A stretch of DNA of 50,100 nt from Acidobacteriaceae bacterium (GTDB lineage Bacteria; Acidobacteriota; Terriglobia; Terriglobales; Acidobacteriaceae), in contig JASHNS010000007.1 of NCBI GenBank assembly GCA_030041515.1, positions 1 through 50,100 on the forward strand, written 5' to 3'. Each line of letters opens with the position of its first letter. Position 1 is the first letter of the stretch. The translations under genes and the position numbers were made by a program. Positions 31,087 to 38,390 of this stretch are shown here, one piece after another. Below the pieces are notes generated by a model. The model searched no databases, was not told the DNA's origin, and saw nothing but the letters and a program-made list of their open reading frames with translations.

Positions 31087-31123
31087 TGCTGCAGTGTGCA
31101 GCAGACTGCATCAAATTGCTGCA
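31087..31123. promoter_or_regulatory. Operator-like repeat array upstream of the RHH regulator
   Basis: TGCTGCA-GTG-TGCAGCA at 31087-31103 is a perfect inverted repeat, and TGCTGCA recurs at 31117-31123, exactly 30 bp after the first half-site. The second copy overlaps a possible -35 (TTGCTG at 31116-31121) paired with CATAAT at 31141-31146. This layout fits autoregulation by the ribbon-helix-helix protein whose GTG start lies at 31156. Confidence 0.55.
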
Positions 31124-31155
31124 ATCTGCGCCATTGGTGTCATAATGGGATAGAC

Positions 31156-31374
31156 GTGACACCCAAAACCAAATCCGTCAGTTCCAAGAATCGATTTTCT
31201 GTTTCGCTGACAGATTCCGAGCTCACTGAGCTACTCTCGCTCAAAGACCGGCACCGCGTCTCACTGGCGTGGCTGGGTCGGCAGGCGATCGTGGAATTCA
31301 TTGCGAAATACCGAGAAGAAAACGTGCAGCTGCCCCTGAAGCTGACGATAAGGAGCACTTATGACCGCTCCTAA
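31156..31374 (+). CDS. Ribbon-helix-helix (CopG/Arc-like) regulator of the R-M genes
   Basis: The 72-residue protein begins at the GTG at 31156. Its N-terminal strand NRFSVSLTDSEL, followed by two helices (LTELLSLKDRHRVSLAWLG, RQAIVEFIAKYRE), is a ribbon-helix-helix fold, the DNA-binding dimer of CopG/Arc/MetJ-type repressors. The stop overlaps the start of the cytosine methyltransferase gene by 14 nt, so the two are translated from one message. It likely controls expression of the methyltransferase, and perhaps the nuclease, in the manner of a controller (C) protein, although classical C proteins are HTH rather than RHH. An upstream in-frame ATG at 31066 gives a Cys-rich extension unlike the fold and crosses the operator, so it was rejected. 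Confidence 0.78.
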   Translation: MTPKTKSVSSKNRFSVSLTDSELTELLSLKDRHRVSLAWLGRQAIVEFIAKYREENVQLPLKLTIRSTYDRS

Positions 31375-32539
31375 GACTCTCACCGCCATAGATCTCTTTT
31401 GCGGCGCCGGTGGCCTCTCTGAAGGGTTCAGGCAAGCGGGCTTTCACGTGCTCGCGGGCCAGGACTTCGATGCAACCGCTGGCGCGACTTTCGCAGCTAC
31501 ACACCCTGAAGCGAGGTTCCTTCCGGGCCCGATACAAGAGGTCACGGCCTCGCAGTTGCTTCGTGCCACAGGTCTGAAGCGCGCTGAGGTGGACGTCCTT
31601 GTGGGTGGGCCGCCGTGTCAAGGGTACTCCGTTTACAACCATCAACGGGGCGCTGATGATCCTCGCGCCGGCTTGTTCCGAGAATACCTGCGAATTGTGG
31701 AAGGCCTCCAGCCAAAGTGGCTGGTGATGGAGAACGTCACCGGAATCACTTCGATCGCCGGTGGAGCGATTGTGCGAGAGATTCAGCGTGGAATGGCCAA
31801 GCTGGGCTATCGGGTTCGGATGAAGGTACTGAAGGCTGAAGAATTTGGTGTGCCGCAAGAGCGGCGTCGCGTCTTCTTCATCGCCACCAGGACTGCGCAG
31901 CCCATTTTCTTTCCCGCCGCGGTCCACGGTCCTGGGTTGCCCAATTTTGTGACCATTTGGGATGCCATATCTGACCTGCCCCGAGTGCCCAATGGCGGTG
32001 CCGGCTGCAGTCTAAACTACGCGAGCGCCCCCAGGAACGAATATCAGAGAAGGCTCCGTGGTGCGGAGCAGGTAGTCACAAATCATGAGGCTCCGCAATT
32101 GGCGCGAGTAAACGAGGAACGTATGAAGCACATTCCGCCGGGCGGATCGTGGAGGGATCTCCCGTTTGCGCTGCTCCCACAAGGGATGCGCCGTGCAAAG
32201 AGAAGCGATCACACAAAGCGCTACGGTCGGCCCCGCAAAACAGATTTGGCCTGTACCATTCTGACGAAATGCGATGTGCATTGGGGCGCGTATATCCATC
32301 CTGTCCAGGACCGTGCCATTACCGTGCGCGAGGCTGCGAGGCTCCAGTCATTCCCCGATTCGTTTGTGTTTCAGGGGAGCAGGACGGACCAATACAAGCA
32401 GGTAGGCAACGCCGTACCCCCACTGCTGGGCTTCCATGTGGCAAAGGCTATGCTGTCGGCGATGGAAGCACCCGAGGCGGAGGAATCCACTTCTGACGCG
32501 ATTCCGGGTGAACTGTTTGATCTGTCGGTCGCCATCTAG
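31361..32539 (+). CDS. DNA (cytosine-5-)-methyltransferase of a type II R-M system
   Basis: The 392-residue C5-MTase has all main motifs: I (AIDLFCGAGGLSEGF), IV with the catalytic Cys (VGGPPCQGYS), VI (LVMENVTG), VIII (VPQERRRVFFIATR), IX (ITVREAARLQSFPD) and X (YKQVGNAVPP). The variable target-recognition region lies between VIII and IX (residues ~190-310). It methylates cytosine within the recognition site and protects the host from the companion nuclease. AAGGAG lies seven bases before the ATG. The 3' end overlaps that of the convergent NotI-like gene by 4 nt. Base composition is lower in GC than that of the flanking chromosomal genes, which suggests horizontal transfer. Confidence 0.95.
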   Translation: MTAPKTLTAIDLFCGAGGLSEGFRQAGFHVLAGQDFDATAGATFAATHPEARFLPGPIQEVTASQLLRATGLKRAEVDVLVGGPPCQGYSVYNHQRGADDPRAGLFREYLRIVEGLQPKWLVMENVTGITSIAGGAIVREIQRGMAKLGYRVRMKVLKAEEFGVPQERRRVFFIATRTAQPIFFPAAVHGPGLPNFVTIWDAISDLPRVPNGGAGCSLNYASAPRNEYQRRLRGAEQVVTNHEAPQLARVNEERMKHIPPGGSWRDLPFALLPQGMRRAKRSDHTKRYGRPRKTDLACTILTKCDVHWGAYIHPVQDRAITVREAARLQSFPDSFVFQGSRTDQYKQVGNAVPPLLGFHVAKAMLSAMEAPEAEESTSDAIPGELFDLSVAI

Positions 32540-33567
32540 TTCTCCTCCGGAACTTCCTCGGGTATCTCTGCTCCTGTTGCGTCGGCTTCCGCGCGTGTCG
32601 GCGCGCTTGTCGCCTTGCTTGCGATGCGCCGCTCAAACTCCGGCTTTGGCACAGGTTTGCCACCGGTTAGTCCTTCAACCGAACGCTCCAAAGTGGTGAG
32701 ACGGACTTCATCAAGCACCATGCGGCTGCGCTTCTCTCCAGGCATTTCATCAAATCGGACGATGAACCACGCAATATCAGCATTGGAAATGTCCGCTACG
32801 CGGTCCATTTCTCCGATGGAATCAAAAAAGGCGCGGTCCACCACGACCGCCATCTTCTTGCCCCAGCGCCGAAGAGTAGGAACCTTGATTTGCAGTTGCG
32901 GCATCAGGCGCTTCGGTCCACTACTGCGATAATCCGGCCTGCGCCTTCCAGCAGGAAAGACGACGTGATTCACATTCGTATCTGCGAACGCCGTGAACTC
33001 CCGGCTCATGGCATCACCAGAGAAATAGACCGCCTGAATCTCCACTGCGCACCACTCCATCGGCGCGTCTATGGCGGTCTTGTTACTGACGATAATCATG
33101 TCGAACCGGCCAACATCGTCCCCGCCTTTGCTGTCGGTGGTTGCCGCTGCCTCAAGGAAGCCCACCTCTCCGACAAGAAGGGGGTTATCATCGCCCAGAA
33201 GATGTGCGCCGACCCAGCGAAATACCTCAAGGCCTTCGTGGAAACGGTAGGGGCAAGTGACGCGGAGGCCCCCCACTGTACCGGCGACGGCCTCGCCCAC
33301 AACCTGTCCTGTCGTCTCGTCCTGGCGGTGGGCATAGAGGCGAAGAGAGCACACACCTCCCGATTTTGTGCATACTCCGGTTCCTTGCGAGGATTTGAAC
33401 GGGCACGGCTGCTGGTCCCGCTCCTTTTTCTTCTTGGATTGCTCCATTGCAAAATATTGCCTATCAGCAGCGGTCAACTCAGCCACACGGTTTCCGAACC
33501 ACTCCCCAATTCCAAACCTAGGTGTGACATCCTTGGGCTTTCGCGTCGCTTTCTTCCGTCCTGTCAT
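32536..33567 (-). CDS. NotI-family type II restriction endonuclease
   Basis: The 343-residue protein shows the two hallmarks of NotI. The first is a four-cysteine metal site: Cys55 (QPCPFK), Cys66 (GTGVCTKSGG), Cys73 (VCSLRLY) and Cys105 (VTCPYRF). In NotI such a site binds iron and has a structural role. The second is a PD-(D/E)XK-type active site with Gln in place of Lys: Asp156 (GRFDMIIV), Glu176 and Gln178 (WCAVEIQAVYFSG). This corresponds to Asp160, Glu182 and Gln184 that I recall for NotI. NotI cuts GCGGCCGC; specificity here is not proven. The start at 33567 has GGAGCC upstream. The gene is convergent with the methyltransferase and divergent from vsr. Its C-terminal ~45 residues are low-complexity and acidic. 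Confidence 0.82.
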   Translation of the reverse strand: MTGRKKATRKPKDVTPRFGIGEWFGNRVAELTAADRQYFAMEQSKKKKERDQQPCPFKSSQGTGVCTKSGGVCSLRLYAHRQDETTGQVVGEAVAGTVGGLRVTCPYRFHEGLEVFRWVGAHLLGDDNPLLVGEVGFLEAAATTDSKGGDDVGRFDMIIVSNKTAIDAPMEWCAVEIQAVYFSGDAMSREFTAFADTNVNHVVFPAGRRRPDYRSSGPKRLMPQLQIKVPTLRRWGKKMAVVVDRAFFDSIGEMDRVADISNADIAWFIVRFDEMPGEKRSRMVLDEVRLTTLERSVEGLTGGKPVPKPEFERRIASKATSAPTRAEADATGAEIPEEVPEEN

Positions 33568-33681
33568 CAGGCTCCATTCCGAAGCGCAAACCGTGAGTCC
33601 GCGCCGAGGTCCAAGAACTCAAGGCAAGACGGAATTCACATGCAGCGGGTGTTTGAATCGAAGTGAGAATCCCGATTCATT

Positions 33682-34143
33682 ATGCCACCTACTAAAAAGC
33701 AAAAGAGAAAGCGCGCTCAGGCAGGGATGACGCGAAGCGAAAACATGCGCCGGATCATGGGCAGGAATACGACCCCGGAACTGACCGTGAGACACCTCCT
33801 CTCCCAGCGAGGCTTCCGCTATCGGCTCCATAGGGCGGATCTGCCGGGAAAACCAGACATTGTCTTCGTGTCCCGGCGCAAAGTCATTTTCGTGCACGGC
33901 TGTTTCTGGCACGCTCACTCTTGCAGCATGGCGCATCAACCGAGAACGAACGAGGGCTACTGGTCCCCGAAGTTGCAGCGCAACCAGGAGCGGGACGCAC
34001 ATCACCTGACTGCATTAAAGGCCGCTGGTTGGAAGGTGCTGACAATTTGGGAATGTGAGCTGAAAGATATCGCCTCCGTTACGCGAAAGCTGGTGCGATT
34101 TTTGACTGGCGCCGCGGATTGCTCCGCTTCGGCAAGCAGGTAA
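33682..34143 (+). CDS. vsr: Very short patch repair endonuclease (Vsr)
   Basis: Vsr nicks 5' of the T in T:G mismatches that arise when 5-methylcytosine deaminates, so it usually accompanies C5-methyltransferases, as here. The 153-residue protein shows TRSENMRRIMGRNTTPELTV, the active-site Asp in LPGKPDIVFVSRRKVIFVHG, the zinc-site residues in GCFWHAHSC, YWSPKLQRNQERDAHH, and WKVLTIWECEL. A basic N-terminal extension (MPPTKKQKRKRAQAG) precedes the conserved start at residue 16. The ATG at 33727 is an alternative with a close GGCAGGG. The 114-nt gap to the divergent endonuclease gene must contain both promoters. A strong terminator follows at 34276. Confidence 0.93.
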   Translation: MPPTKKQKRKRAQAGMTRSENMRRIMGRNTTPELTVRHLLSQRGFRYRLHRADLPGKPDIVFVSRRKVIFVHGCFWHAHSCSMAHQPRTNEGYWSPKLQRNQERDAHHLTALKAAGWKVLTIWECELKDIASVTRKLVRFLTGAADCSASASR

Positions 34144-36447: not shown

Positions 36448-36815
36448 TCAAAACTCAGTTTAACGTGCGGCCTCGTTTGAGCCGGCGTAGTGAATGGGCC
36501 GGTGCGGCCTGGCTGGCTCGTCGAATTTTGGCCTCGCGTGCGGCTCGCGGAGTCGCGGTTCCGTGAACGCGGGCTTCGCTGAGTGGGCCTGTTCTCTGCA
36601 TTCAAGATTACCGAGGTCACTTATAGTACCCCAATCGTGGCATTGAGATAGGGGTTACTTGAAGTTACTGTTGGGCATCCGCTGTAACTAATTTGCTGTC
36701 CTGATCTGCTGTCCTGAAGTAGCCGGAGCACGACCGCCGCGCGGCGGATACGGCCTGCCCTGGGACTGTGGCACCCGTGGTCCGCCCAAGGGCGGCTCGC
36801 GGGCCGGAGGCCTCA
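36448..36815. other. Noncoding gap with small repeats before the Ser/Gly lipoprotein
   Basis: No gene is supported in these 368 nt. TGCTGTCCTGA occurs twice with a 13-bp period (36694-36704, 36707-36717), and CCGCCC-AA-GGGCGG near 36782-36795 can form a small hairpin just upstream of the lipoprotein ribosome site GGAGG at about 36806. The AT-rich part around 36600-36700 could hold the promoter, but no clear boxes were found. Confidence 0.4.
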
Positions 36816-38390
36816 ATGACGTCCCTCTCCCGCTCTGCGGCGCTGGTTTTGGCCGCTGCTGTCACGTTGTTTCTGATTCCCACCGGTTGCAGCACAGTCG
36901 CCGGCGACACAGCCGCGCCAGCCAGCCAGACGTCGGGCGCTTCCTCAGGGGCGTCCGGCAGTGGCACGAGCGGGTCAGGTAACTCTGGTAACTCAGGTAA
37001 CTCCGGCTCAAGCAGCGGCTCGGGAAGCTCGGGCTCTGGCTCTTCGGGGTCCGGGTCTTCCGGATCAGGATCCTCGGGGTCGGGTTCGGGCAGCTCGGGT
37101 TCCGGATCTTCGAGTTCCGGGACCAGCGGATCGGGTTCTTCGGGGTCGACGGGATCGGGAAGCGGAAGCGCTGGCTCATCGGGATCTGGTTCGTCAGGTT
37201 CAGGTGCGAGCGGAACGGGTTCCGCCGGCTCGGGAAGTTCCAGTTCGGGCAGCGGCAGCTCAGGAACGGGCTCTTCCGGATCCGGTACTTCGGGATCCGG
37301 TACTTCGGGATCAGGTACTTCGGGATCAGGTTCGTCGGGTTCGGCCGGCTCCGGCTCCAGTTCCTCGGGCTCTTCTGGCTCCAGTTCATCCGGAAGCTCA
37401 GGGGCCGGGTCGTCCGGATCGGGAACCTCCGGTTCAGGCAAGAGCAGCTCCGGTACCTCGGGATCCGGCTCGTCAGGATCTGGTTCGTCGGGTTCAGGCT
37501 CGAGTGGCTCGAGTGGTTCGGGTTCTGGATCGTCCGGATCGAGCAGCTCAGGCTCCGGATCGTCGAGTTCGGGAAGCAGCGGCGCGGGCTCGTCGGGGTC
37601 CGGTTCGGGTAGCTCCGGTTCCGGAAGCTCCGGATCTGGAAGCTCCGGATCGGGAAGCGGCTCCGGATCGGGTTCTTCTGGCTCCGGGTCATCGGGATCT
37701 TCGGGCCTGCCATCCGTTGTTCCCTCCAGCGCGGTTGCCGTCAGCGCCATCCAGAGTCTCAGCAACTGGAAGCTGGCGGACGATTCCGGCACCAGCGGGA
37801 CCGCGAGCGGCGCGATGTCGCTGGCCACGCTGCCCTCGCTGAGCGGCCAGTCACGCGAGTTCGCCACCACTTACACGGACGAGGGCGGCGAGCGCTACTG
37901 GGTCACATTTGCCTCCGACCCCAACGCTACCAACTTCCTTTACGACGCATGGATTTATCTGGCCGGCTCAGCTTCGGGTGTGGACACGCTCGAGCTCGAT
38001 ATGAACCAGGTCACGGCGAACGGCCAGACCGTCATCTACGGCTTCCAGTGCGACGGCAATGCTCATGTGTGGGATTACACGGAGAACGCCGGCTCGCCGA
38101 CGAACTACGACGACCACTGGCTCCGCTCGGAGCAGCCCTGCAACGTCCATGACTGGGCTGCAAACTCCTGGCACCACGTTCAGATCTGGTACTCGCGTGA
38201 CGATTCCGGCAACGTCACATACCACTCTGTCTGGCTCGATGGCACCGAGCAACCGATCGACGCCACCGTTCCTTCATCGTTTGCGCTGGGCTGGGCTTCG
38301 GTGCTGGTCACGAATCTTCAGATCGATGGCGAGGGGGCGAGCGGCTCCTCGACGGCTTACGTGGACAAGCTCACGATCTATCGCTGGTAA
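36816..38390 (+). CDS. Ser/Gly-repeat lipoprotein with lectin-like C-terminal domain
   Basis: The 524-residue surface-type protein has a signal peptide ending in LFLIPTGC, a lipobox with an unusual Pro at -3 and acylated Cys25. Residues ~40-296 are an almost pure Ser/Gly tract (GSGSSGS repeats, occasional Thr, Asn, Ala), long and flexible enough to project the end domain away from the membrane. Residues ~297-524 form a beta-rich domain with SNWKLADDSGTSG, FLYDAWIYLAGSASG, LELDMNQVTANGQTVIYGF, WHHVQIWYSRDDSGNV and AYVDKLTIYRW. This looks like a concanavalin/LamG-like jelly roll that may bind sugar. Two Cys in that domain may form a disulfide. The start has GGAGG four bases after a GC hairpin. 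The exact role is unknown. Confidence 0.8.
   Translation: MTSLSRSAALVLAAAVTLFLIPTGCSTVAGDTAAPASQTSGASSGASGSGTSGSGNSGNSGNSGSSSGSGSSGSGSSGSGSSGSGSSGSGSGSSGSGSSSSGTSGSGSSGSTGSGSGSAGSSGSGSSGSGASGTGSAGSGSSSSGSGSSGTGSSGSGTSGSGTSGSGTSGSGSSGSAGSGSSSSGSSGSSSSGSSGAGSSGSGTSGSGKSSSGTSGSGSSGSGSSGSGSSGSSGSGSGSSGSSSSGSGSSSSGSSGAGSSGSGSGSSGSGSSGSGSSGSGSGSGSGSSGSGSSGSSGLPSVVPSSAVAVSAIQSLSNWKLADDSGTSGTASGAMSLATLPSLSGQSREFATTYTDEGGERYWVTFASDPNATNFLYDAWIYLAGSASGVDTLELDMNQVTANGQTVIYGFQCDGNAHVWDYTENAGSPTNYDDHWLRSEQPCNVHDWAANSWHHVQIWYSRDDSGNVTYHSVWLDGTEQPIDATVPSSFALGWASVLVTNLQIDGEGASGSSTAYVDKLTIYRW
36936..37705 (+). repeat. Low-complexity Ser/Gly coding repeat
   Basis: About 770 nt encode alternating Ser and Gly with varied synonymous codons (TCC, TCG, AGC, GGA, GGC, GGT, GGG). 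The codon mixing means the DNA is only loosely repetitive, which protects it from slippage. It also opens a long antisense frame, dismissed below. Confidence 0.85.

Follow-up and report, generated by a model that had tools for sequence, protein, structure and literature searches.

An apparently mobile NotI-family restriction-modification cassette with a predicted ribbon-helix-helix controller

Introduction

How restriction-modification (R-M) systems hold back cutting until the host DNA carries its methylation has been asked for a long time, and most of the work has been done on C-proteins, which are helix-turn-helix (HTH) proteins. Here we describe a four-gene cassette from a 50,100-nucleotide stretch of DNA of an Acidobacteriaceae bacterium (the window; GenBank assembly GCA_030041515.1, contig JASHNS010000007.1), which encodes a small ribbon-helix-helix (RHH) protein, a C5-cytosine DNA methyltransferase, a NotI-family nuclease and a Vsr endonuclease. 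The predicted controller is like C-proteins such as C.Kpn2I, reported to inhibit the methyltransferase promoter (PMC6237814), in being a small, putatively DNA-binding protein encoded with R-M genes; it differs from them in belonging, by its Pfam families and structural model, to the RHH and not to the HTH (XRE-type) proteins.

Another described regulator, RptR, is a repressor of Type I R-M systems: it is reported to be an alpha-helical dimer with a TAGCTA site, is encoded by the first gene of its defence operon, represses itself through three 9-bp direct repeats and shows a strong genetic association with R-M systems (PMC12255303). The window protein shares with RptR the operon-first position, the association with R-M genes and, as we propose, autorepression through short repeats. 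It is set apart from RptR by its RHH-like model, by 10-bp-phased TGCnnCA repeats and by a subfamily that mostly precedes Type II-like genes. With C-proteins and RptR already known as R-M regulators, our best reading is that the RHH controller is a type distinct from both.

A review of R-M regulation mentions ribbon-helix-helix once, for toxin-antitoxin regulators (PMC3874152), and among the top-listed titles and abstracts of open-licence papers on RHH or CopG proteins together with R-M none describes an RHH controller of an R-M system, a weak negative. The DefensePredictor paper reports RHH domains in 4% of uncharacterised predicted E. coli defence clusters, which fits RHH controllers in defence systems.

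We consider it likely that the window holds a mobile cassette of Type II R-M in which the RHH protein acts on an array upstream of its own gene, binding it and so repressing the RHH-methyltransferase operon. We also lean, with less assurance, towards a new class of R-M controller: RHH proteins with the signature S-x-A-W-x-x-R and 10-bp-phased operators, forming a module that passes between unrelated Type II systems across at least four phyla.

Gene content and mobility of the cassette

The cassette consists of four open frames (Table 1). Their coordinates and their methyltransferase, nuclease and Vsr profile matches bear out an earlier note, made from the letters alone, that had described a compact R-M island of an RHH regulator, a C5 methyltransferase, a convergent nuclease and a divergent Vsr gene. 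The 3' end of the RHH gene overlaps the methyltransferase start by 14 nt, the methyltransferase and nuclease genes overlap at their 3' ends by 4 nt (CTAG, 32536-32539), and the Vsr profile score is 144.1 bits (TIGR00632, cut-off 97.85).

Table 1 Features of the cassette, in window coordinates.
Feature	Coordinates	Strand	Basis
Predicted RHH operator	31087..31133	+	Five 10-bp-phased TGCnnCA repeats
RHH (CopG/Arc-like) predicted controller	31156..31374	+	GTG start; Pfam scores, structural model, subfamily survey
C5-cytosine DNA methyltransferase	31361..32539	+	PF00145 7.1e-68; 87% identical in L014
NotI-family restriction endonuclease	32536..33567	-	PF12183 5.2e-76; AF2 model matches NotI 3c25/3bvq; convergent with methyltransferase
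Divergent nuclease/Vsr intergenic region	33568..33681	.	Non-coding, yet conserved by eye with L014; exact TGCWGCA absent
Vsr-type very-short-patch mismatch endonuclease	33682..34143	+	TIGR00632 2.2e-42, PF03852 4e-28

By sequence comparison the cassette looks like a horizontally moving 3-kb Type II R-M unit. Another Acidobacteria metagenome-assembled genome (FK1.bin77, locus L014) carries a copy 80% identical in DNA that is confined to window positions 31087-34105, and the flanks of this copy (about 5.5 and 4.5 kb) have no match to the window. The homology begins exactly at the TGCnnCA array (31087), and the cassette proteins are 77-88% identical. GC content is 57.4% within the cassette and 63.4-63.5% alongside it. 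Of 396 genomes sampled from the phylum, 13 carry NotI-family genes (the genome of the window included), as do 13 of 398 genomes of a second phylum (its centre among them). Relatives of the nuclease were found on 10 plasmid records, eight of them about 69-70% identical, and none in the viral contigs or phage records searched; no PADLOC family matches the nuclease.

The R-M locus of plasmid pBN5 (Paraburkholderia aromaticivorans, NZ_CP022995) has the same plan: a small upstream gene, a C5 methyltransferase, a convergent NotI-family nuclease (69% identical) and a divergent Vsr gene. Its methyltransferase, however, is just 46% identical to that of the window, and its small protein, annotated 'plasmid-related protein', matches RHH_9 weakly (15.4 bits, cut-off 23.4) and is without S-x-A-W. 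That the cassette has decayed, or that the methyltransferase is an orphan, with the nuclease inactive, is highly improbable in our judgement: although no site-specific avoidance was seen for candidate sites, each of the four genes has an open frame, conservation extends to the putative catalytic residues and the cysteines, and both L014 and pBN5 keep the four-gene layout.

An RHH subfamily upstream of unrelated methyltransferases

In Pfam the window protein matches RHH families only, at scores below their cut-offs, whereas the RHH genes of L096 (32.5 bits) and L130 (29 bits), which belong to the same subfamily, score above the RHH_1 cut-off. Its structural model (pLDDT 75.6) contains helices at residues 20-33 and 37-55 and matches the CopASO DNA-binding domain with probability 1.00 (TM 0.82 by target, rmsd 1.1, E 0.18), CopG (1b01) being within the ten best fold matches; as modelled, the small protein has an RHH fold that resembles the DNA-binding domains of CopASO and CopG. 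The known repressors of this fold (CopG, Arc, omega) control, to our knowledge, plasmid copy number, phage or toxin-antitoxin genes.

The window protein is a member of an RHH subfamily marked by the signature S-x-A-W-x-x-R. With a four-protein RHH profile (E <=0.001), 8 of 396 genomes from the phylum gave matches, the window aside; a six-protein profile (E <=1e-4) gave matches in 10 of 398 genomes from the second phylum and in 3 of 331 from a third; a plasmid search gave five records, namely two known Sphingobium plasmids, two new ones that were examined and H52, which was left out. As a control, the 30 best RHH_1 matches that had loci were taken from 60 genomes, one per genome; one of these had the signature and is counted among the signature loci. 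Of the 16 signature loci found by RHH sequence alone, 12 have a DNA methyltransferase directly downstream, against none of 37 RHH genes without the signature (Fisher p 7e-9, with the caveats that L088 and L089 are near copies and that the signature was partly chosen from the loci counted). After the signature was fixed, the control and the third phylum gave 2 of 2 with it and 0 of 31 without (p 0.0019). These counts do not include the window, L014, L041 and L042, since the route to them led through the window itself or through the R-M genes. The 37 genes without the signature were judged by Pfam scan of the next open reading frame (ORF) in 26 cases, while three had no next ORF and one was followed by an integrase by Pfam; the remaining seven were judged by ORF length and catalytic motifs alone.

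The systems downstream of signature genes are unrelated to one another, with NotI-, PstI-, XhoI- and BglII-type nucleases and others. The signature gene is followed by a C5 methyltransferase (L091, L099), by one with an unrecognised gene and Vsr (L052, L090), with a NotI-family nuclease (L085) or with a weak AAA match and PDDEXK_7 (L086); by an Eco57I-type methyltransferase with a BsuBI/PstI nuclease (L053) or XhoI (L092); by N6_N4 with BglII (L095); by N6_N4 and C5 (L096); by two methyltransferases (L133); or by two N6_N4 enzymes (L257). As for the other four loci, a Type IIG-like gene lies 1.57 kb downstream in L087, nothing was recognised downstream in L093, and in the near copies L088 and L089 an SNF2 helicase gene follows, with a Schlafen/AlbA (RecG-C-like) gene next in L088. 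These last genes may form an uncharacterised defence module under a like controller.

The RHH and methyltransferase genes overlap, when the earliest start codon is taken, in the window, L014, L041, L042, L085, L086 and L091, which suggests translational coupling. The earlier note's RHH regulator coupled to the methyltransferase is supported well past what was proposed there.

The co-occurrence of RHH, methyltransferase, NotI-family nuclease and Vsr genes, also raised in that note, is patchy. Around NotI-family nucleases a small RHH-type query matched nearby in 9 of 18 C5-paired rows (L073 and L085 being a single place) and Vsr in 5 of 18, and neither of them in any of the 22 rows paired with a D12-class methyltransferase; these counts are lower bounds because flanks are short in some loci, and the RHH-type queries were the window or pBN5 protein, not told apart, so that some matches are of the pBN5 type. 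Vsr near C5-paired rows only is as expected if Vsr serves 5-methylcytosine. The patchiness of the RHH gene implies that NotI-family systems do not in themselves include the controller.

A phased repeat array upstream of the RHH gene

Operator repeats in helical phase are usual for RHH repressors. Directly upstream of the window RHH gene lie five TGCnnCA units spaced 10 bp apart, the first two of which form the inverted repeat TGCTGCA-GTG-TGCAGCA (31087-31103). In 1.02 Mb of the genome, the sample used for all such counts unless stated, this is the sole TGCWGCA-N3-TGCWGCA site and the array is the sole run of at least three phased TGCnnCA units; with up to one mismatch the pattern has three matches in the window, all in the array, against 0.10 expected. 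In L014 the first two arms are kept and the spacer between them is altered. Similar arrays precede the RHH genes of the Sphingobium plasmids, TGCTGCA-CAG-TGCAGCA lies upstream of the RHH gene in Cereibacter, where the R-M genes are unrelated, and TGCAGCA-TTC-TGCTGCA does so in a third-phylum genome; the A-W-V relatives have, by eye, mostly GTGrTGyA-like repeats. At L041 (4768) and L042 (2481) the annotated CopG start runs through the predicted operator, and the gene probably begins 39 nt further downstream, at ATGCCG.

A motif-free test of self-similarity upstream of 18 signature genes, with the near copies L042 and L089 left out, gave a mean z of 1.74 at lag 10 (Fisher p 1.7e-7), 10 of the 18 loci being individually below 0.05; the lowest p among the other 19 lags was 0.019 (lag 20). 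It supersedes a first periodicity test, in which 18 loci had a mean z of 1.84 at lag 10 and six negatives -0.21.

Since RHH domains are common in antitoxins, the RHH protein could instead work together with the enzymes, as an antitoxin-like or DNA-scanning partner, and not be a transcriptional regulator. Control RHH genes do often precede toxin-like genes (27 scanned: PIN 7, PemK 4, PIN_3 3 and ParE 2, which may overlap), and the RHH domains of DndE are described as the parts with which a modification complex binds DNA (PMC10853773). A single protein partner is nevertheless hard to square with one RHH subfamily preceding unrelated methyltransferases and nucleases, and phased arrays upstream of the RHH genes also speak for a regulator; we regard the partner role as unlikely.

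The nuclease and its recognition site

NotI is described as having Gln where the catalytic Lys would stand, together with a Cys4 motif (PMC4081073), and the window nuclease has putative counterparts of both in Gln178 and four conserved cysteines. By Pfam profile (PF12183, 255.5 bits, cut-off 22) and by predicted fold it is a NotI-family enzyme, as the earlier note had held: the best Foldseek match of its AF2 model (pLDDT 81.6) is NotI 3c25_A (E 7.3e-9, probability 1.00, TM 0.49/0.47, rmsd 9.3), and the first fold match other than NotI has E 0.13. Across 17 family members C55, C73, C105, D156, E176 and Q178 are invariant and C66 is at least 90% conserved. The window nuclease and NotI are 14% identical over 393 alignment columns, and PDB sequence searches with the nuclease and with a relative gave no match to NotI.

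This kinship could mean that the nuclease is an ordinary NotI isoschizomer which cuts GCGGCCGC, with the C5 methyltransferase protecting that site and the RHH gene incidental. The repeated occurrence of GCGGCCGC in the window is real: the five positions cited earlier are among 14 sites, where about nine are expected at the density of the 1.02-Mb sample. In that sample the site is not depleted (181 seen, 196 expected, ratio 0.92), nor is GCGATCGC (ratio 0.98). In L014, on two Sphingobium plasmids and in G412 the RHH gene accompanies the methyltransferase, which argues against an incidental role.

The close relatives of the window nuclease pair with both C5 and D12 methyltransferases. Partners were read for six of the eight plasmid records with a 69-70% identical nuclease (Variovorax H2 and H4 were left out): pBN5 has a C5 enzyme, as in the window, and a gene annotated DNA adenine methylase is present on pEST4011, pIJB1, one Variovorax plasmid and both Aeromonas plasmids. 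The pEST4011 methyltransferase and one from Thermus match PF02086 (D12 class N6-adenine; 44.7 and 38.6 bits, cut-off 22) and contain DPPY, a motif that goes with adenine methylation. In the nuclease tree, which has long branches and open forks and of which only starred forks were used, the starred 14-row clade holding the window nuclease comprises nine D12 and five C5 rows, classed by tblastn matches within 2.5 kb of the nuclease; L026, L027, L036, L039, L040, L042 and L073 (near-copies, cut or partial; L073 and L085 are the same place) were left out. Conversely, L041 and L085 have methyltransferases that match the window enzyme at 70% and 75% identity, paired with nucleases that share just 21% and 24% identity with the window nuclease. 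Since close methyltransferases pair with distant nucleases, the restriction and modification genes have reassorted. On the reading of an exchanged controller module, pairs of RHH and methyltransferase genes would likewise switch nucleases.

With C5 and D12 partners around close nucleases, the site should hold both A and C, if it is shared; GCGGCCGC contains no adenine. Given this, the low identity to NotI and the undepleted site, NotI specificity taken from the family name, which the earlier note raised as a condition, is unsupported, and so is protection of GCGGCCGC by the methyltransferase. We regard the isoschizomer as improbable; the nuclease site, as judged from these comparisons, probably differs from GCGGCCGC. 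The swap between C5 and adenine-class enzymes around a closely similar nuclease limits the possible sites and warns against taking specificity from a family name.

CGATCG was put forward beforehand as a candidate as it contains A and C and as XorII has a vsr neighbour. It is the most depleted 6-bp palindrome by z (ratio 0.67) and ranks 7th of 59 by ratio (0.97 Mb). It is low in genomes with a NotI-family gene (G396 0.63, G397 0.44, G399 0.39) and also in relatives without a NotI-family match (G217 0.60, G007 0.44, G023 0.66, G094 0.82).

Elsewhere, distant NotI-family nucleases with C5 methyltransferases were seen on Pseudomonas, Klebsiella, Sagittula and Cronobacter plasmids (L043-L046). The window also has a 540-residue ORF at 36768-38390 (+) with a very long Ser/Gly repeat tract followed by a C-terminal part without it.

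Discussion

From the cassette's gene order, array and subfamily association we infer the following course of events. RHH dimers would bind the phased TGCnnCA array, and the bound protein would repress the RHH-methyltransferase operon, its own gene included. On entry into a new host, where RHH protein is absent, the methyltransferase would be made freely and the chromosome protected; as RHH protein accumulates, methylation would be held down, leaving invading DNA unprotected. The nuclease, a predicted NotI-fold enzyme with a site probably other than GCGGCCGC, and Vsr would be expressed from the separate divergent region, and Vsr would repair T:G mismatches arising from deaminated 5-methylcytosines.

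Several observations pull the other way. The window RHH protein scores below the Pfam cut-offs (RHH_3 15.1 bits, cut-off 21.6; another family 13.4, cut-off 20.5), no strand is assigned in its single-chain model, and no Foldseek match of that model has E <0.001 (best 0.18). The NotI fold matches (3c25, 3bvq) have TM 0.43-0.49 and rmsd 9-10.5. Four of the 16 signature loci (L087, L088, L089, L093) lack a directly downstream methyltransferase, and the RHH gene is patchy among NotI-family loci, as noted above. At lag 10, eight of the 18 loci are not below 0.05, L086, L088, L090 and L092 being far off, and 29 generic RHH controls show a mild signal of their own (mean z 0.66, p 0.042). A search for a consensus promoter at the array gave none. 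Nor does an exact TGCWGCA lie between nuclease and Vsr; direct control of the nuclease by the RHH protein is therefore not indicated, and its timing is probably indirect or set by its own promoter.

If RHH control of R-M is true, RHH proteins would form a second controller family that is widespread and whose operator can be predicted, which would make many uncharacterised R-M cassettes testable, and the RHH signature would be a simple genomic tag for finding new ones.

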